From: a virus | IMG/VR virus record: IMGVR_UViG_3300033233_000095 | Location: 1-37,688 of that record | DNA: 37,688 nucleotides | Direction: 5' to 3' (one strand) | Shown: positions 3,014-34,812 of the stretch, one piece after another | Position numbering within the stretch: position 1 is the stretch's first letter | How the letters are laid out: the number at the start of each line of letters is the position of its first letter | Notes under the pieces: model-generated | What the model was told of the DNA's origin: nothing | Databases searched by the model: none | The model's input: the letters and a program-made list of their open reading frames with translations, nothing else | Position numbers and translations under genes: made by a program

Positions 3014-3190
3014 ATGAACTGTCGCTCATGCACTATTGAAGATGCAAAGAAGGCGCAACAGGCGGCCTTGGTACTCCTCAGGACACCGGGAACGCTCCCT
3101 AAAGAGGACACCGAAAAGGCTATAGCCTGTCGCGAGTGCGCGTTTGACAAGCTGGTAACCGAAGCCACAAAGAGGTTGAGCGCATGTTAA
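3014..3190 (+). CDS. 58-aa protein with two CXXC pairs
   Basis: An ATG at 3014, 4 bases after GGAGG, opens a 58-codon frame that ends at 3188-3190 and overlaps the endolysin start by 7 bases. Two Cys pairs (CRSC at residues 3-6 and CREC at 39-42) are spaced by a helical linker and could bind one zinc. Coupled translation with the endolysin gene is likely. Function is unknown; the coding call rests on RBS, overlap and the paired cysteines. Confidence 0.55.
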   Translation: MNCRSCTIEDAKKAQQAALVLLRTPGTLPKEDTEKAIACRECAFDKLVTEATKRLSAC

Positions 3191-3648
3191 CTGATAAGCA
3201 GAAAGGTCAGACGGCATTAAGGCTTAACGGCGTATTGCCCGAAGTGAGCGAAGCGGTCAAAGAACTCCTTGCCGAACTTGAGGCAAAAGGGCTTTACTTT
3301 ATTGTATCGCTCGGCATGAGGACGATAGCAGAACAGAACGCGCTCTACGCCATAGGCCGCAGTTTAGCGGGTCGCAAGGTTACGAATGCGTGTGGCGGAT
3401 TTTCCTGGCACAACTTCGGCAGGGCTGTTGACCTTGTACTTGTCCGGGATGGTGGGGTGATAGAGTGGGAGAACCTGGACACGAACGCGGACGGAATGGC
3501 CGATTACTCGCAGATGGGACAGATGGCGAAGAACCACGGCTTTATATGGGGCGGCGACTTCAAAGGGTTGGCCGACTTTGGACACATAGAATATCATCCG
3601 GGATTGACATTAGCGCAAGCCCGAACAAGTGCGGGACTTACAGTATAA
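3184..3648 (+). CDS. Endolysin: M15 L-alanyl-D-glutamate peptidase
   Basis: This 154-residue protein is a peptidoglycan-cutting endolysin of the M15 (VanY/T5 endolysin-like) group. The zinc site is visible as SWHNFGRAVD (His76, Asp83) and HIEYH (Glu136 as base, His138 as third ligand). Between them, residues 99-107 (DTNADGMAD) form an EF-hand-like calcium loop, as in the T5 endolysin, which is known to be activated by calcium. There is no signal peptide, so release needs a holin. Two holin-like membrane genes follow at 3660 and 4633. It overlaps the preceding 58-aa gene. Substrate specificity is inferred from the family. Confidence 0.92.
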   Translation: MLTDKQKGQTALRLNGVLPEVSEAVKELLAELEAKGLYFIVSLGMRTIAEQNALYAIGRSLAGRKVTNACGGFSWHNFGRAVDLVLVRDGGVIEWENLDTNADGMADYSQMGQMAKNHGFIWGGDFKGLADFGHIEYHPGLTLAQARTSAGLTV

Positions 3649-5121: not shown

Positions 5122-5161
5122 ATAACTACGGTATGGGTGAAGGGAGAACATCGGAGACTGT

Positions 5162-5767
5162 ATGAACAATATAATAAAAATCGTATTTGTTATGTCCTTA
5201 GCCTTCGGCCTTGCCGTCGGTGTTTATGCCGGACAGGACGGCGGGGACACTTTGAACGTCACGCCGCCGAGCCAGATGGATAAGACGGTTGGAGTCGTGT
5301 CCGGGACATGGCATGGTAAGGTTGCGGTTGTTGGGAGTGTTCGACTTCCTGTTAAGAGCGACTATAAATCCATCTTCTACCAGTTTACGGGCCTGATAGC
5401 GGCAGGTGGGACTCGTAAGGTGACGGCGGCGAATTACATCATGGACAATTCGACCAGCCTACACCCGTACCCCTGCCAGATAACGGTCAACAGTATATCT
5501 CTTGTCGCTTCGGCAAATACCGCGTCGGCAAAGGTTTACTTCTACAACCGGGGGACTTATGAGGGTAGCGGGTATGGTACAGACACGTTCGCTGCCAGCG
5601 TGAATTTTGCATCCATAGCCGCCGCGCCGTCCGGCTCAACTTATATCCAGGACGTGCAGTGTTCGATTCCCTTAATCAACCTGGACAAGACCAATACAAT
5701 ACCGATTCTCATAAAGAACACGGGCGCGACAGCCTCAAGGTTCTATCTCGGAATAACTTACCAGTAG
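5162..5767 (+). CDS. Exported protein, 201 aa, beta-rich
   Basis: The first 23 residues form a clear Sec signal peptide (MNNIIKIVFVM, then a probable cut after VYA). The mature part is rich in Thr, Ser, Ala and Tyr, has strand-like alternation and only two Cys. It is similar in style to the 2002-2466 protein, ending in a YQ-like beta strand. It opens a run of four exported proteins (5162-7289) that includes the cytochrome. Upstream GGAGA gives a modest RBS. A virion surface or periplasmic structural role is possible. No family is recognised. Confidence 0.7.
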   Translation: MNNIIKIVFVMSLAFGLAVGVYAGQDGGDTLNVTPPSQMDKTVGVVSGTWHGKVAVVGSVRLPVKSDYKSIFYQFTGLIAAGGTRKVTAANYIMDNSTSLHPYPCQITVNSISLVASANTASAKVYFYNRGTYEGSGYGTDTFAASVNFASIAAAPSGSTYIQDVQCSIPLINLDKTNTIPILIKNTGATASRFYLGITYQ

Positions 5768-5776
5768 GAGGGCAGT

Positions 5777-5977
5777 ATGAAAAAGTTGCTTTTTGGAATA
5801 CTTTTACTGGCTACCTTTACGGGGATAGCTTGGGGCATGGCAGGCGACCCGCCGGGATGTTGGATAAAACCCTGTCCTCTTACACTTGAAGGCCACAACT
5901 CGGATGAAGGCTGTTATATATCTCCTTGTCCGCTTGGTACTTACAGTGTCCAACCGCTTGGAGGCTATAGCCTTTGA
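5777..5977 (+). CDS. Small exported Cys-rich protein with an internal repeat
   Basis: A 66-residue protein with a Sec signal peptide (MKKLLFGILLLATF, cut near residue 20). The mature chain of about 45 residues holds four Cys in two copies of GC[W/Y]I[K/S]PCPL, separated by a short polar linker, consistent with disulfides formed after export. The stop overlaps the TTG start of the cytochrome gene, so the two are translated together. Function is unknown; a small partner of the cytochrome is a reasonable guess only. Confidence 0.65.
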   Translation: MKKLLFGILLLATFTGIAWGMAGDPPGCWIKPCPLTLEGHNSDEGCYISPCPLGTYSVQPLGGYSL

Positions 5978-6669
5978 AAAAGGCCCTGCTTGCCGTAACC
6001 GTATACGTCGCTCTACTTGCCTGTTTCGGGGCCGTGGCCTCGCAGGGGTACGTTCAGAACGGCGTATCGGTTACGGGCCCGCACGGCAATTACACGACTA
6101 TGGGTATGTATAAAGGCTGCATCACCTGCCATTACGTACGGGGGACGACTGCGGTTGTAGTGCATACGTATACATCGTGGGTAAGCCATTCAGGGTGCCA
6201 GTCCTTTAACGGCTACACCTGTACGCAAAGGTGGTACTCATATACGACCGTGGACAGGCACAAAAATTACACCTCGTTTTTTACGGGGTTCACCGGAGGC
6301 AAGAACCCGAGGCCGGGAGTGTGCCTGGTCTGCCACAACACGGCCTCGGCCCGGTTCTCGTATTCATCAAATACGACCGTCATAAGAACGGCAAGGTCAA
6401 AGGCGGTAGCGATAAACTCCGCGACCCATACCCAGGGGACGTACTACAACAGGCGCGATGCAGTAAGGTACTCGCCTGAAACGTCAGCCGCCCCTCTATT
6501 TTCGTACTCGCTCGGCTGGAATACAAACAAGACGGTGTCGAAACTTTCGCCGGTAAAGAATTGGGGGACGTCCAAGGTATCCCAGAAGACAGGGTTCGTG
6601 AACACTGTTAATAATTGCATGGACTGCCATCAGCCGCATTCGAGCAATAAGGCAAAATATCTCAGATGA
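5974..6669 (+). CDS. Exported three-heme cytochrome c-like protein
   Basis: This 231-residue protein has a Sec signal peptide (about residues 1-23; LLAC at 14-17 is a possible but poor lipobox) and three CXXCH heme-attachment motifs: CITCH at 49-53, CLVCH at 117-121 and CMDCH at 215-219. The last is followed by QPHSS, matching the CXXCHxPHxS pattern of doubled-CXXCH multiheme cytochromes. Extra His and Tyr residues could supply distal ligands. Two further Cys (75, 83) may pair. Heme would be attached in the periplasm by host machinery. The start is TTG 5974, 8 bases after GGAGG, overlapping the previous stop. I know of few tailed phages described with a multiheme cytochrome. Role (electron transfer during infection, or virion part) is unknown. 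Confidence 0.85.
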   Translation: MKKALLAVTVYVALLACFGAVASQGYVQNGVSVTGPHGNYTTMGMYKGCITCHYVRGTTAVVVHTYTSWVSHSGCQSFNGYTCTQRWYSYTTVDRHKNYTSFFTGFTGGKNPRPGVCLVCHNTASARFSYSSNTTVIRTARSKAVAINSATHTQGTYYNRRDAVRYSPETSAAPLFSYSLGWNTNKTVSKLSPVKNWGTSKVSQKTGFVNTVNNCMDCHQPHSSNKAKYLR

Positions 6670-6677
6670 GGAGCGCC

Positions 6678-7289
6678 ATGAAAGGTTTCGACTTCAAGGG
6701 TCAATTTATAAGACTGCTCGCCCCCGGCAGACAGAAAGCCCCGTGGCCCGGCTGCACTGCATATAGCGGCATGACCGAGGAACTTTGCAACAAGTCCATG
6801 CACGAGTTGGCCGGATGCTTCCTCTGTCGTGTCCGCAGACGCGCTCAGAACCGCGCTTATAAGGCCAAGACCCGCGAATTAGTCTCTACATGTTTAGCGA
6901 TAATGTTACCCTTGGCGATGTTTGTCGCCGGTGCAAGCGCCCTCGGCACGAGTTCCGTCTGGCGCGGCAAGGTCTATTCGACCGTCAGGCAGTATGGCAC
7001 CATCGAAATAATCAACGAGAGCGGCGCGGTCGTCAAGACGATCACGCTTAAGGGGTTCCCGAACTACACCGCGAGCATAGCGTTCGGTAACTGGACCACT
7101 CCGTCCTCTGATGGTGTTTATACCGCCCTCTACAATATGAGCAGTATCAACGGCAAGGTTTCTTATTCCCGGACGCTCGTGGTCGACGCGACATCTGGTA
7201 CTGTTGCACAAGTGAAAGGATTTGATAACTCCTCAACAGCGTATCCTATATTAAAGGCTATACGTTCGCTTATAATAATAAAGCACTAG
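6678..7289 (+). CDS. Membrane-anchored protein with Cys-rich cytoplasmic head
   Basis: ATG 6678 lies 4 bases after GAGGAG and is preferred over ATG 6666, which lacks an RBS. The 203-residue protein starts with about 60 basic residues carrying several Cys (including CFLC), then one membrane segment near residues 65-85 ending in VAGASALG, which could be an uncleaved anchor or a late signal-peptidase site. The outer part is beta-rich and threonine-rich. It follows the cytochrome gene closely, so it may hold or assist it at the membrane. This is not a recognised family. Confidence 0.6.
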   Translation: MKGFDFKGQFIRLLAPGRQKAPWPGCTAYSGMTEELCNKSMHELAGCFLCRVRRRAQNRAYKAKTRELVSTCLAIMLPLAMFVAGASALGTSSVWRGKVYSTVRQYGTIEIINESGAVVKTITLKGFPNYTASIAFGNWTTPSSDGVYTALYNMSSINGKVSYSRTLVVDATSGTVAQVKGFDNSSTAYPILKAIRSLIIIKH

Positions 7290-7297
7290 GGAGAATC

Positions 7298-7978
7298 ATG
7301 GCATACACAACTATGGATGTTTTGGCACTGTCAATTAGGGAGCTTATCCTTGAACCGTTGACAGGTTCCGAAACGGACGGGTTCCGGTTCAAGAATACCC
7401 AGATAGTCAGAGCGTTCAACCGGGCGATAAAACACGCCGTCGGCACTCGCAAGGGCGTTAAGGTGATAACGAATGTCCCGACAGTGGCAGGCGTGAATGC
7501 TTCCGCCCTTCCCGCGGGTGTCCTTGAAGTATACGGGGCGAACTATCAGGGCCAGCCCCTATCCCCTCTCTCGACATGGGAAAAAGACGTCGCCCTTGTC
7601 AATGCTCGGACATTCGGCGCGATACAGGGTTATTCAATTGACGGCGAACCCCCATACCAGATAACGTTGCTTGACGCACCTACAGCAAACGGGACAACAG
7701 ACCTGAAGGTTAACGCGCTTGTGTTCCCGGCGAACGTGGCCGACTTGACGGCCCAGTCCTCAAGCCCCCTGCCGCCATACTATGACGATTTCCTAATTTT
7801 TACAACGGCGGGTATGCTTTTGACTCCCGACGAGGGAACGGCCCAGGACTTGAAGTATGCCAAGTATGCTGATGAAGAGTTGAGAATAATACAAGGCATC
7901 GAGGAGCCGCGCAACAAAGACCCGCAGGGCGACAGGTTCCACAGTATTTCCGAATATTGTACAGGAGAGATGGACTAA
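7298..7978 (+). CDS. Head-tail adaptor-like protein
   Basis: A 226-residue soluble protein with an alpha-helical opening (TTMDVLALSIRELILEP) and an end rich in Tyr and acidic residues. The pattern of an N-terminal helix, a Pro/Gly-rich beta middle (LPAGVLEVYGANYQG) and a late helical segment DDFLIFTTAGMLL resembles the phage adaptor family (DUF6682-like) that joins portal and tail in podoviruses. It stands first in the tail gene group. The call is from resemblance and position, not from a search. Confidence 0.6.
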   Translation: MAYTTMDVLALSIRELILEPLTGSETDGFRFKNTQIVRAFNRAIKHAVGTRKGVKVITNVPTVAGVNASALPAGVLEVYGANYQGQPLSPLSTWEKDVALVNARTFGAIQGYSIDGEPPYQITLLDAPTANGTTDLKVNALVFPANVADLTAQSSSPLPPYYDDFLIFTTAGMLLTPDEGTAQDLKYAKYADEELRIIQGIEEPRNKDPQGDRFHSISEYCTGEMD

Positions 7979-8427
7979 TGCCAGCACTCCTAAAATTAAC
8001 CGGATTGGGTTCAGGCGTGATGGACTTGGTTTTTACGTCCGCGCCTCTCGGTAATCCCATATACGACCCGGCGGTCGATGTCGCCGTGGGCTTGACTGCG
8101 GACGACTCGCTGTATACGCAAAAATTTGGCAATGGTTCGGCTAATATTGTGATTAGTTTCCCAAAAGAAAGCCCTTTGAAGTGGGAGGATTATATAGGCG
8201 GCTACGACCCGATAGCAAGAACCCAGACAGCAAACAGGCAATCTCTCTGCAACATCTTTGAGAATATAGCAGTGGGTGCGCTTAATTCCATAACCGCCGT
8301 AATAGGCGACGGGTATGGTAATTCTATCTCTGTAACCGCAAATATAATGAACTCGCCCAATCTCGGATTTAAGGCACTCGATAACGGAAATTACATCGGT
8401 GACCTGAAACTTAGGATACAGCGATAA
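7978..8427 (+). CDS. Tail-region structural protein, unknown
   Basis: The ATG overlaps the preceding stop (TAATG at 7976-7980) and GGAGAG lies upstream. The 149-residue product is beta-rich with no membrane segment and one Cys. Its own stop overlaps the start of the large tail protein, giving a coupled trio. A tail completion or tail-tip partner role is likely from context. No family is recognised. Confidence 0.6.
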   Translation: MPALLKLTGLGSGVMDLVFTSAPLGNPIYDPAVDVAVGLTADDSLYTQKFGNGSANIVISFPKESPLKWEDYIGGYDPIARTQTANRQSLCNIFENIAVGALNSITAVIGDGYGNSISVTANIMNSPNLGFKALDNGNYIGDLKLRIQR

Positions 8428-11105: not shown

Positions 11106-11135
11106 CGAAAAGGGGACAAAATGAAAGGGGACAAA

Positions 11136-11810
11136 ATGAAAAAGGATAGCATAATACCAGCGTATTTATTGATAGTGTCGGTAGTTCTAATGCTGTTGAC
11201 GGCATCTATCGGAAGCTTAACAACCACGGCAAAAGCAGCCCAGTACGACGCTATAGGCAACCCGGTATTTTATGCCCATACGACTATCTATGCGGCACAG
11301 CTCAACAAATTACATGGTGGGCCTGCATTTACGTCCTACTCTACCAATAACGCGGCCACAATGGCGACAAAGGCCCCAATCGCCTCACCGACGTTCACGG
11401 GTACGCCATTATCGACAACTCCGGCGACGACCGACAACACAACTAAAATCGCCACGACGGCTTTTGGTAAACTGGCGTTCCAATCCGGGTACGCCACGTT
11501 TACAGCCCTGACTCCGGGTTCGACTGTTACATGGACACCTGTTGTCGGGACGAATGTTTATACCCTGACACCGGGCCAGACCGAAACAATCAACATGGGA
11601 ACCGTCCCGGCGGGGTGTGTCGGGCAACTCGTCGAACTGGTAATCACCACGTCCGGCGTGTCGAGCTATACATTGACATTCGGGACGAATATCCGGTATG
11701 CCACGTCAACGCTTGCAACCGGAACGACAACGGCAAAGAAGTTTACTATTTTGTACCTGATAGAATCGACGACCTCAGTCATTGAGATATCGAGAACAGT
11801 TGCTGAATAA
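11136..11810 (+). CDS. Signal-peptide-bearing tail-fibre-like protein
   Basis: The start ATG 11136 gives a 224-residue protein with a Sec signal peptide of about 35 residues (hydrophobic YLLIVSVVLMLLTASIG, cut near AKA). The mature part contains APIASPTFTGTP followed by DNTTKIATTAFGK, a motif pair typical of phage tail fibres, and then a beta-rich C-terminal domain. An upstream in-frame ATG (11121) has the same AAAGGGGACAAAATG context, because the RBS and start are duplicated in tandem. A fibre motif behind an export signal is unexpected, since tail fibres are normally assembled in the cytoplasm. Confidence 0.72.
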   Translation: MKKDSIIPAYLLIVSVVLMLLTASIGSLTTTAKAAQYDAIGNPVFYAHTTIYAAQLNKLHGGPAFTSYSTNNAATMATKAPIASPTFTGTPLSTTPATTDNTTKIATTAFGKLAFQSGYATFTALTPGSTVTWTPVVGTNVYTLTPGQTETINMGTVPAGCVGQLVELVITTSGVSSYTLTFGTNIRYATSTLATGTTTAKKFTILYLIESTTSVIEISRTVAE

Positions 11811-22433: not shown

Positions 22434-22817
22434 ATGAAAAGGATATATAGAAATTATCGGGAGTGGGAAGAAACCAGGGCCGGTTTATGGAACAGACCCG
22501 TAGGGATAGAGCGCGATACACATATAGAGAAATGCTCTGTCTTTATGTCGGATACAATGCTATTCGAAAGGGCTATGTTCCGAGTAATACTTGAGTGGCC
22601 GATATCCTGCGAAGTCAATTTTACGTCTAAGGGTTCAAATCGTCAGGCATGGTTAGGGCATGCGGCTTGCTGTATTGAAATAGGCTGCCCTGAAGAACCC
22701 ACAAGGGCCGCGTGGTGGAAGCTAACGCAAGAGCAGAGAGACCTGGCCGACGCTTCTGCTGCAAAGGTTATTAAGGTATGGGAGCAGGAAAATGGTTATC
22801 TTGGATTGGGGGCATAG
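22434..22817 (+). CDS. 127-aa protein of the IbrA/IbrB cassette, unknown
   Basis: ATG 22434 follows AGAGGGGGAA. The protein has several Trp and Cys and contains HIEKCSVFMSD, SCEVNFTSKGSNRQAWLGHA and AACC, then a helical end (AWWKLTQEQRDLADASAAKV). Proteins of this look are found beside IbrA/IbrB homologues in other phages, from memory. It is the first gene after the structured leader. Function unknown; the Cys residues could bind metal. Confidence 0.65.
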   Translation: MKRIYRNYREWEETRAGLWNRPVGIERDTHIEKCSVFMSDTMLFERAMFRVILEWPISCEVNFTSKGSNRQAWLGHAACCIEIGCPEEPTRAAWWKLTQEQRDLADASAAKVIKVWEQENGYLGLGA

Positions 22818-22819
22818 CC

Positions 22820-24031
22820 ATGCCAAAAAAGAAAATAGGAATTGACGTATTGACCGCAGCAAGGGAACGCATATCGTGGACGTTCGATAATTTTAAGCGC
22901 ATCTCAATAAGTTTCAGTGCTGGGAAAGATAGCACTGTCATGCTACACCTTGTCATGGATGAGGCTATAAAGCGTGGGCGCAAGGTAGGCATTTTATTCA
23001 TCGATCTTGAAGGGCAATACAAGCTTACGATTGATCACGCAAGAGAGTGCCTTAAAATGTACGAAGAACATTCCGAACAATTCTGGGTCTGCCTGCCTAT
23101 CCACCTAAGGAATGCCGTGAGCGTTTACCAACCACACTGGACCTGCTGGGACGATGACGTAGTGGAGTCCTGGGTTAGAGAGTTGCCGCAGGAAGCGATA
23201 CACGACCAATCGTTTTTCCCTTTCTTTGCAAAAAACATGGAGTTTGAGGAATTTGTGCCTGAATTTGGCGAATGGTACGCGCAAGGAGAGTCGGGCGCGG
23301 TAATGGTCGGTATACGATCCGACGAAAGCCTTAACAGATTCAGAACCATTGCCAGTACCAAGAAAATACGCTTCGAAGGAAAACAACACACTACCCAGAT
23401 AACCGAAAATATTTACAACGTCTATCCCATCTATGATTGGAGGGCGCAAGATATATGGGCTTACCAAGGCAGGAACACAGATAAGCCCTACAATAAATTA
23501 TACGATATGATGCACTTAGCTGGCCTTACTATCCACCAAATGCGCATCTGTCAGCCATATGGAGACGACCAAAGGCGTGGATTGTGGTTGTTCCACCTAA
23601 TAGAGCCGGAAACTTGGGCGCGTATTGTGGCAAGGGTAAATGGTGCAAATGGCGGGGCATTATATGTCCAGGAATGGGGGAATGTAAACGGCTACAGACG
23701 AATAACCAAGCCAGAGGGTCATACTTGGAGAAGCTTCGCGGAACTCCTGGTATTGTCCATGCCACCCAAATCGAAAGAACATTACGAAAACAAGCTATTA
23801 GTTTTCAGGAAATGGTGGCAGGAACGCGGATACCCAGAAGGTATACCCGATGAGGCGGATTATGCTATAGAGGCCGCAAGGAAGGCTCCATCGTGGAGAA
23901 GGATCTGTAAATCTCTACTGCGAAACGACTACTGGTGCAAAGGGCTTGGCTTTTCTCAGCATAAAAGCGAGGCATACGAGAAATATCTAAAATTAATGAA
24001 CAAGCGGAGAGAAAAATGGTCAATCGCATAA
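22820..24031 (+). CDS. ibrA: IbrA-like PAPS-reductase-family protein
   Basis: The 403-residue protein belongs to the adenine nucleotide alpha-hydrolase/PAPS reductase superfamily. The PP-loop is SFSAGKDST at residues 31-39, followed by a Rossmann-like pattern (VGILFIDLEGQ). A middle block VMVGIRSDESLNRFRT and VYPIYDWRAQDIWAY matches the IbrA/DUF3440 group. It has no Cys pairs of a reductase centre. Known IbrA proteins occur with IbrB in phages and plasmids; they were first noted as activators of immunoglobulin-binding genes, but the chemistry is unknown. It overlaps the IbrB gene by 16 bases. Confidence 0.85.
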   Translation: MPKKKIGIDVLTAARERISWTFDNFKRISISFSAGKDSTVMLHLVMDEAIKRGRKVGILFIDLEGQYKLTIDHARECLKMYEEHSEQFWVCLPIHLRNAVSVYQPHWTCWDDDVVESWVRELPQEAIHDQSFFPFFAKNMEFEEFVPEFGEWYAQGESGAVMVGIRSDESLNRFRTIASTKKIRFEGKQHTTQITENIYNVYPIYDWRAQDIWAYQGRNTDKPYNKLYDMMHLAGLTIHQMRICQPYGDDQRRGLWLFHLIEPETWARIVARVNGANGGALYVQEWGNVNGYRRITKPEGHTWRSFAELLVLSMPPKSKEHYENKLLVFRKWWQERGYPEGIPDEADYAIEAARKAPSWRRICKSLLRNDYWCKGLGFSQHKSEAYEKYLKLMNKRREKWSIA

Positions 24032-25439: not shown

Positions 25440-26165
25440 ATGCTTGTCGAGAATACGCTTTTCGGTACGATTGATAAGGTTGCGGACAGTATCGCCCGTA
25501 TCAAGCACTTTGAGCCGCCAGAGGGCTACTATGTGGCCTTTTCAGGCGGTAAGGATAGCTGCGTAATCCTTGACTTGGTTAAACGGTCAGGCGTGAAGTA
25601 TGACGCGCATTATAACCTGACTACGGTTGACCCGCCCGAACTGGTGAAGTTTATCAGACGTGAGCATCCAGAAGTAGAGATACACAGGCCGGAAAAATCT
25701 ATGTGGAAGTTAATAGTTAGCAATCAGATACCACCTACCCGCCTTGCCCGTTATTGCTGCCGGATACTGAAAGAGGGCGGCGGGGCAGGTCGCAGAGTTG
25801 TTACAGGTGTTCGTTGGGCTGAAAGTGTCAAGCGTGGCAAACGAAAGATGGTTGAGGATTGCCATCAAGGAAAACGGAAGGTCTATTTGCATCCTGTCAT
25901 AGATTGGACTGATGCGGACATTTGGGAGTATATCAGGACAAATAGCCTGCATTATTGCTCACTTTACGACGAAGGATTTAAGAGGCTTGGGTGCATCGGT
26001 TGTCCAATTGCTGGCAAGGTTGGCATGAATAAAGAGTTTGGGCGATATCCTAAACTAAAGGCTTCTTATCTCAGGGCATTTGGCAGGATGATTAAGGCAA
26101 GGGATGAATCAGGCAGAAGGCGTCATGGACTGGTGGATAAACGGAAGCGACAAGGGCGACCCTGA
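25440..26165 (+). CDS. APS/PAPS-reductase-like protein with 4Cys motif
   Basis: A 241-residue protein with the PP-loop SGGKDS (residues 35-40), a pair CC at 106-107 and CIGC at 185-188. CC-X77-CXXC is the iron-sulfur motif of APS reductases and is also used by DndC-type sulfur-transfer proteins. Other marks are TGVRWAES and HPVIDWTDADIWEYI. RBS GGAGGC precedes ATG 25440. The last 18 residues are unusually basic, while the +1 frame continues as a typical family end (see 26104-26187), so a one-base frameshift near 26100 is likely. Substrate (sulfate, nucleotide or DNA) unknown. Confidence 0.8.
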   Translation: MLVENTLFGTIDKVADSIARIKHFEPPEGYYVAFSGGKDSCVILDLVKRSGVKYDAHYNLTTVDPPELVKFIRREHPEVEIHRPEKSMWKLIVSNQIPPTRLARYCCRILKEGGGAGRRVVTGVRWAESVKRGKRKMVEDCHQGKRKVYLHPVIDWTDADIWEYIRTNSLHYCSLYDEGFKRLGCIGCPIAGKVGMNKEFGRYPKLKASYLRAFGRMIKARDESGRRRHGLVDKRKRQGRP

Positions 26166-34317: not shown

Positions 34318-34568
34318 TGAAAATGGATGCGGCAATAGTAGGCGAGGATAAGAACTATGAAGCGCGCGCCGACTTCAGATGCCTTGCGGATGCGGCGGCA
34401 ATCAGGAAAGACAACAAACGATTCAGGGCGGCGATGAAGGAAGGCCCGGCCATACTGAAAGAGGGCAAAGAATCAGCCGACGAGGAACAGTCGAGCGTGG
34501 ACGAGATGGAGAGTTTGCTGGAAGAGCTTAAAGGCATGAATGCCGTGGACGATTCGACCGATGATTAA
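34317..34568 (+). CDS. 83-aa acidic helical protein
   Basis: Coupled to the previous gene by TAATG. The protein is a charged helix (AAIRKDNKRFRAAMKEG) with an acidic, Ser-rich end. Its stop overlaps the start of the CXXCH lipoprotein gene by 8 bases. Unknown; possibly a head-assembly accessory. Confidence 0.55.
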   Translation: MKMDAAIVGEDKNYEARADFRCLADAAAIRKDNKRFRAAMKEGPAILKEGKESADEEQSSVDEMESLLEELKGMNAVDDSTDD

Positions 34569-34812
34569 ACATATCATGCTCATAGCGTTTATCGCCTTAC
34601 TTATGGTTGCCTGCATAGAAAAGGCTCCAGCGGCCGACCTAAAGGGCGCGGTCGCCATTAACCCGGCCACAGGACAGGAGCAGGCGCGGGTTGTCGGCAT
34701 ATCAGGCGGCGGGATACAGCTTGACCGGGCCGCAAACACAGGCACGAAGATATTCCTTGTTGACGTGGACACCTGGACAAAGGGAAAGTGTGGGGTTTGT
34801 CATGGAAGATGA
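34561..34812 (+). CDS. Lipoprotein with a C-terminal CXXCH heme motif
   Basis: ATG 34561 overlaps the previous stop; the longer in-frame start has no RBS. Residues 1-17 form a hydrophobic signal ending in MVAC, a probable lipobox with Cys18 lipidated. The mature 65 residues are mixed and end with KGKCGVCHGR, where Cys77, Cys80 and His81 form a CXXCH heme c motif three residues from the end. If real, it is a membrane-attached monoheme protein. A single CXXCH can also arise by chance or bind metal. It is the second CXXCH-bearing exported protein in this genome. Confidence 0.6.
   Translation: MIKHIMLIAFIALLMVACIEKAPAADLKGAVAINPATGQEQARVVGISGGGIQLDRAANTGTKIFLVDVDTWTKGKCGVCHGR

Follow-up and report, generated by a model that had tools for sequence, protein, structure and literature searches.

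Does a tailed phage carry an exported multiheme cytochrome of its own, and what might it use it for? To our knowledge, most known cases in which phages affect respiration concern photosynthesis and sulfur oxidation. The question was raised by a sequence-only reading of the IMG/VR virus record IMGVR_UViG_3300033233_000095 (positions 1-37,688). This whole stretch of 37,688 nucleotides is hereafter called the window. We estimate at about even odds (0.5) that it holds an authentic phage gene encoding an exported triheme c-type cytochrome, placed in a late exported cassette and supporting envelope electron flow.

A predicted triheme cytochrome gene in a complete phage genome

The ends of the window carry an identical direct repeat of 127 bp, which leaves 37,561 unique bases and shows that the contig is circular or complete; it is a complete circular phage genome. 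That it belongs to a tailed phage, as had been proposed, was borne out by profile matches to terminases, to an SU10-type major capsid protein (783-1946, + strand; PF17236, E 1.4e-27), and to an SU10-type head-tail adaptor (7298-7978, +; PF24175, 30.1 bits). Other genes encode an Sf6-type small terminase, a large terminase, ERF, Gp157, a DNA polymerase III beta clamp, and, from profile matches, an M15/VanY-type endolysin (3184-3648, +). A portal-like protein of the SU10 type matches PF23899 with 26.9 bits, under the cut-off of 30. The endolysin and the clamp indicate that the host is a bacterium with peptidoglycan. The relatives of the capsid, clamp, terminase, and PAPS-reductase proteins come from hosts of many different kinds. 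There are two PAPS-reductase-type genes (22778-24031 and 25440-26165), whose closest relatives are found in a Chlorobiaceae phage (58.6%) and in the Methanosarcina virus MetMV (62.5%), respectively. These similarities suggest anoxic habitats and do not name a host.

The gene of interest (5974-6669, +) is predicted to encode an exported triheme c-type cytochrome. It starts with TTG, is preceded by a GGAGG Shine-Dalgarno sequence that supports this start, and is translated without internal stop into 231 residues. Three CXXCH motifs are found at residues 49-53, 117-121, and 215-219. These predicted heme-binding motifs are CITCH (C49; 6118-6132, +), CLVCH (C117; 6322-6336, +), and CMDCH (C215; 6616-6630, +), the last being followed by QPHSS. 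There are 63 and 93 residues between them, their starts being 68 and 98 residues apart. The N-terminus, LKKALLAVTVYVALLACFGAVASQG, has the typical n-region, h-region, and A-x-S site of a Sec signal, as called (like all signal peptides here) by a heuristic combining hydropathy and motifs, not by SignalP. The ORF with three motifs behind a signal peptide was thus recovered as initially described. The same N-terminus also satisfies a PROSITE-style lipobox ending at C17, so the cytochrome may be a lipoprotein. The motifs were said to be unlikely by chance, and three of them were indeed never obtained in 200,000 shuffles of the residues, either for this protein or for its homologue described below. 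No second ORF with more than one CXXCH was found in the six frames of the window.

Family assignment and fold

The x-PHSS tail after a CXXCH motif is typical of multiheme proteins, and the sequence-only reading had likened the protein to the doubled-CXXCH cytochromes. The protein scores above the curated cut-offs of both relevant profiles, Pfam Paired_CXXCH_1 (PF09699; 30.1 bits for a cut-off of 20.6) and NCBIfam TIGR01905 (26.0 for 25.2), and in this respect the claim holds. The homologue also exceeds the former cut-off (24.7 bits) and is below the latter (20.5). However, the matches span positions 7-24 or 7-25 of the 41 in the profiles, i.e., the first CXXCH half only; two CXXCH within one 41-position domain, the classical doubled motif, are not found. 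Since only one of the two domain-defining CXXCH is matched, we file the protein as a new small family of c-type cytochromes that shares the CxxCHxPHS segment, and not as a classical doubled-CXXCH cytochrome. It resembles the Paired_CXXCH_1 multiheme cytochromes (PF09699/TIGR01905) in its CxxCHxPHSS segment, its predicted export, and its several CXXCH; it differs from them in having half of the doubled motif, three widely spaced motifs, and a homologue under the TIGR01905 cut-off.

An affiliation to the cytochromes c7 (PF14522) did not hold, since the cut-off of 24.8 bits was not reached by the window protein (14.9) or by its homologue (17.4), and the motifs are widely spaced. The triheme c7 of the PpcA type are also exported and have three CXXCH, but they are compact (about 70 residues), whereas the mature protein here has about 208. 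The weak profile matches are mostly to heme families (c7, NrfB-like, and decaheme). A zinc-binding or non-heme family had been named as the outcome that would count against a cytochrome, and zinc families score no better in the profile search. We found no match among PDB sequences up to an E-value of 10, including the solved OmcS/OmcE-type filaments, and the AlphaFold2 model, built from a two-sequence alignment, was too poor for a fold search (pLDDT 28.2). The protein is very probably a c-type cytochrome.

The exported cassette is found in a second phage

Searching 2.9 million viral contigs in three scans revealed only one homologue, in IMGVR_UViG_3300050029_000284 (hereafter L002), which is also the only viral contig with the pattern CMDCHxPH. 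Hence, the comparisons below rest on two sequences, the search by peptide patterns being one that misses distant relatives. No relatives of the cytochrome were found in phages and plasmids using tblastn, and none of the cytochrome or of gene A (see below) in the contigs of GTDB genomes, where the scans reach only relatives with a common short peptide pattern. The two cytochromes are 75% identical (BLASTP), or 79% over the aligned columns. All nine C and H residues of the motifs are conserved in L002, with synonymous changes in the codons of three of them, while the variable residues are altered at both positions of motif 1 (CQVCH) and at one of motif 2 (CLACH); the third motif reads CMDCHWPHSS. 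The six histidines outside the motifs (37, 64, 72, 96, 152, and 222), which are candidate axial ligands, are conserved as well; Cys75 and Cys83 are absent from L002. Since the conservation of motifs and histidines is only modestly beyond the overall identity, it supports heme binding without proving it. The dN/dS is about 0.16-0.22 for the cytochrome gene and 0.10-0.18 for genes A and C, a pattern of substitutions that indicates purifying selection on the cytochrome gene. The first 35 codons (5974-6078, compared with 8001-8105 of L002) have 92% identity in DNA and 100% in protein, and the DNA identity is 46-59% in the next 70 codons. This drop could mark a junction left by recombination, or else a constraint on the start of translation.

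The cytochrome gene is located between the capsid and adaptor genes, in agreement with the late operon initially suggested, and is part of a cassette lying downstream of the former and directly upstream of the latter. Gene A (5162-5767, +) encodes an exported protein of 201 residues, 69% identical in L002 and predicted to be mostly beta in a low-confidence model (AlphaFold2 on a two-sequence alignment, pLDDT 43.7, too poor for a fold search). It is followed by gene B' (5777-5977, +), encoding an exported protein of 66 residues with CxxxCP repeats that has diverged between the two phages. Gene C (6666-7289, +), downstream of the cytochrome, is 75% identical over 177 residues in L002 and encodes a protein with one transmembrane segment (about residues 70-92). 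Its predicted layout consists of a cysteine-bearing N-terminal region, the transmembrane segment, and an external C-terminal domain. The cytochrome gene overlaps both neighbors by four bases of stop and start, TTGA at 5974 with B' and ATGA at 6666 with C, and its homologue in L002 does likewise (GTGA and ATGA); these overlaps also speak for the assigned start. The presence of exported proteins around the cytochrome, also part of the initial description, was confirmed by our heuristic for A, B', and the products of 2002-2466 and 11121-11810, which have signal peptides, and for C, which has its single transmembrane segment.

Some of these proteins deserve a further remark. The gene at 2002-2466 immediately follows that of the capsid, and its product is exported as well by the same heuristic; the product of 11121-11810 (+) is a tail-fibre-like protein (phrog_4209, E 2e-9) with a clear Sec signal. 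Export signals on structural-looking proteins seem to be a habit of this phage. In protein C, a conserved cluster of cysteines (C30, C41, C51, and C54) precedes the transmembrane segment, and N-x-S/T sequons are more numerous than expected, both in the window (6 vs. 1.4 expected) and in L002 (8663-9844; 8 vs. 4.0). These sequons raised the idea of an archaeal host, which we rejected: the excess is clear in gene C only, and both the M15/VanY endolysin and the DNA polymerase III beta clamp of this phage speak against it.

The similarity in DNA between the two phages is confined to positions 5130-5783 and 5954-7192 of the window. These blocks take in gene A, the cytochrome gene, and gene C, B' having diverged. 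The rest shows weak similarity in protein only, in a large protein of the tail region (29-31% over parts) and in two small matches. For its structural proteins, L002 has other families (SPP1-type portal, Phage_capsid_4, and Phage_tube_2, against the SU10 type in the window), and its cassette, flanked by capsid and tail genes, is likewise part of the late operon. A cassette common to phages with otherwise different head and tail modules is a transferable unit that keeps its position in the late operon. A scan of viral contigs with gene C gave no match and missed L002 itself, although it encodes this gene, which shows that such scans can overlook true relatives. In terms of sequence, neither a random ORF nor contaminating host DNA accounts for the locus, a conserved cassette for exported proteins that includes a predicted c-type cytochrome.

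A possible role in envelope electron flow

Since the maturation system of the host adds heme c outside the cytoplasm, a cytochrome must act in the envelope or beyond. Accordingly, we regard an envelope location of this protein as likely. The apoprotein would cross the membrane by Sec and receive its hemes in the periplasm, where the host would attach them with its own machinery for cytochrome c maturation. Such a scheme predicts that the host is Gram-negative, has Ccm genes, and is rich in multiheme cytochromes. The holoprotein, either soluble or lipid-anchored at Cys17, would then act within the infected cell's envelope, next to the membrane-anchored protein C. With protein C in the inner membrane, the exported protein A and the cytochrome could complete an envelope module. 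Such a cytochrome might tap or extend the periplasmic electron chain of the host, and electron flow and proton-motive force might thus last until lysis. The sequences support several parts of this scheme, namely the ORF, the predicted signal peptide, the three conserved motifs with spare histidines, the purifying selection, and the sharing of the cassette. The role in electron flow itself is more tentative. Against it stand the wide spacing of the motifs, unlike that of the compact c7 or c3, and an expression alongside virion and lysis genes that is late for a metabolic helper; we also recognized no gene for a redox partner in this phage. It is conceivable, if somewhat less than probable, that a mobile phage cassette built around its own multiheme cytochrome rewires or guards the electron traffic of the envelope, or is borne by the particle, and represents a redox module not previously described.

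The exported character of the cassette fits other functions. The cytochrome might mimic, cap, or block an outer-surface cytochrome or nanowire that serves as receptor and, with proteins A and C, keep off other phages or sister virions. Each of its neighbors in the cassette is either exported or anchored in a membrane, with no resemblance to an enzyme, the unit travels between unrelated phages like exclusion genes do, and the possible lipobox at Cys17 would put the cytochrome in the membrane. Yet no known exclusion family was matched: the sole PHROG match, to the superinfection exclusion protein Cor (E 0.92), covers residues 1-24, i.e., the signal peptide, and the Cor-type profile has no match over the mature protein. 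Our literature search found no paper linking outer-membrane cytochromes to phage receptors, and late expression is atypical for exclusion, which makes this explanation rather unlikely. We are equally doubtful that the exported proteins, including the cytochrome, decorate the virion, either at the envelope or once lysis has occurred, and aid its adhesion to redox-active surfaces or hosts. The cassette is flanked by capsid and head-tail adaptor genes in the window, and by capsid and tail genes in L002. This placement invites the idea, as do the Sec signals of the structural-looking products of 2002-2466 and 11121-11810, the latter with matches to tail-fibre profiles. However, the heads of tailed phages are assembled inside the cell and the heme is added outside, so that attachment to the particle would have to follow lysis. 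Moreover, the heads of the two phages are unrelated, which makes a common specific binding site on the capsid unlikely.

Two further explanations deny that there is a phage cytochrome at all. The CXXCH motifs might serve as zinc ligands or pair in disulfides, the exported protein then being a structural one, as the missing fold and the doubled-CXXCH profiles matched over one half only would allow; the separate cysteine cluster of protein C could itself bind zinc. This is improbable given an exported protein in which the C, C, and H of all three motifs are kept without exception and one motif bears the x-PHSS tail, and given that the weak matches favor heme over zinc families. Finally, a host gene may enter a viral contig through an assembly error or a prophage flank, and such cases do occur (see below). 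Here, the window is circular, the gene overlaps both neighbors within the late operon, the cassette recurs in a second phage, and its G+C content equals that of the genome (52.3% and 52.1%). With a position between capsid and adaptor genes and a matching G+C, contamination by host DNA or a prophage flank is not a reasonable explanation.

Comparison with known systems

The initial remark that phage reports of multiheme cytochromes are few holds, with the qualification that there are precedents (PMC4914508, PMC9605863, PMC8190135). A putative prophage of Desulfuromonas soudanensis encodes triheme, 11-heme, and MtrC-type cytochromes, and its authors considered transfer by phages a speculation until particles are found (PMC4914508). 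The likeness, judged from the published description, lies in a triheme cytochrome, there with other multiheme ones, in a phage-like region. That region was predicted to be an integrated prophage and has genes for a sheath and a baseplate, whereas here the genome is complete and circular and the cassette is common to a second phage. Borgs carry many multihaem cytochromes, and in both cases such a protein is found on a mobile element, where it was proposed for Borgs to augment the electron export of the host (PMC9605863). But Borgs are giant archaeal elements with many large cytochromes, and the present element is a tailed phage of 37.6 kb with a bacterial-type endolysin and clamp. The SoxD of phages also has c-type heme motifs (PMC8190135); it is a subunit of a sulfur-oxidation enzyme from a known pathway, whereas our protein has three motifs and no known pathway. 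In the part of the literature covered, no multiheme cytochrome was described from the late operon of a complete tailed phage.

If the reading in terms of envelope electron flow is true, a triheme cytochrome owned by phages, and selected in two of them with different heads, extends the phage effects on respiration to envelope or extracellular electron transfer. It suggests that certain phages equip the envelope of their hosts with redox proteins. The gene would support the speculation that phages move cytochromes among metal reducers (PMC4914508), and it provides a compact, testable system of a single gene.

Other cytochromes in viral contigs

An unrelated phage contig, IMGVR_UViG_3300013315_000012 (portal PF04860), encodes a predicted membrane-anchored cytochrome with five CXXCH (7326-8048), whose gene overlaps the end of an ORF with a transmembrane segment that looks like a holin from its sequence. 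This may be counted as indirect support for the role in envelope electron flow. Nearly all matches of a generic scan for two CXXCH were frame-shifted repeats or antisense. Another viral contig (L073) ends with a PpcA-like triheme c7 (6015-6284), behind an ORF that probably overlaps a tRNA. We rejected it as a phage-borne cytochrome, since this place at the contig end and the probable tRNA suggest the host flank of a prophage. Flanks of this type are a trap for the counts of cytochromes in viral databases. In the window, between the terminase and portal genes, a lipoprotein-like ORF of 90 residues (34540-34812, +; lipobox C25) ends in KCGVCHGR, a single C-terminal CXXCH, and may encode a second heme protein or have the motif by chance.
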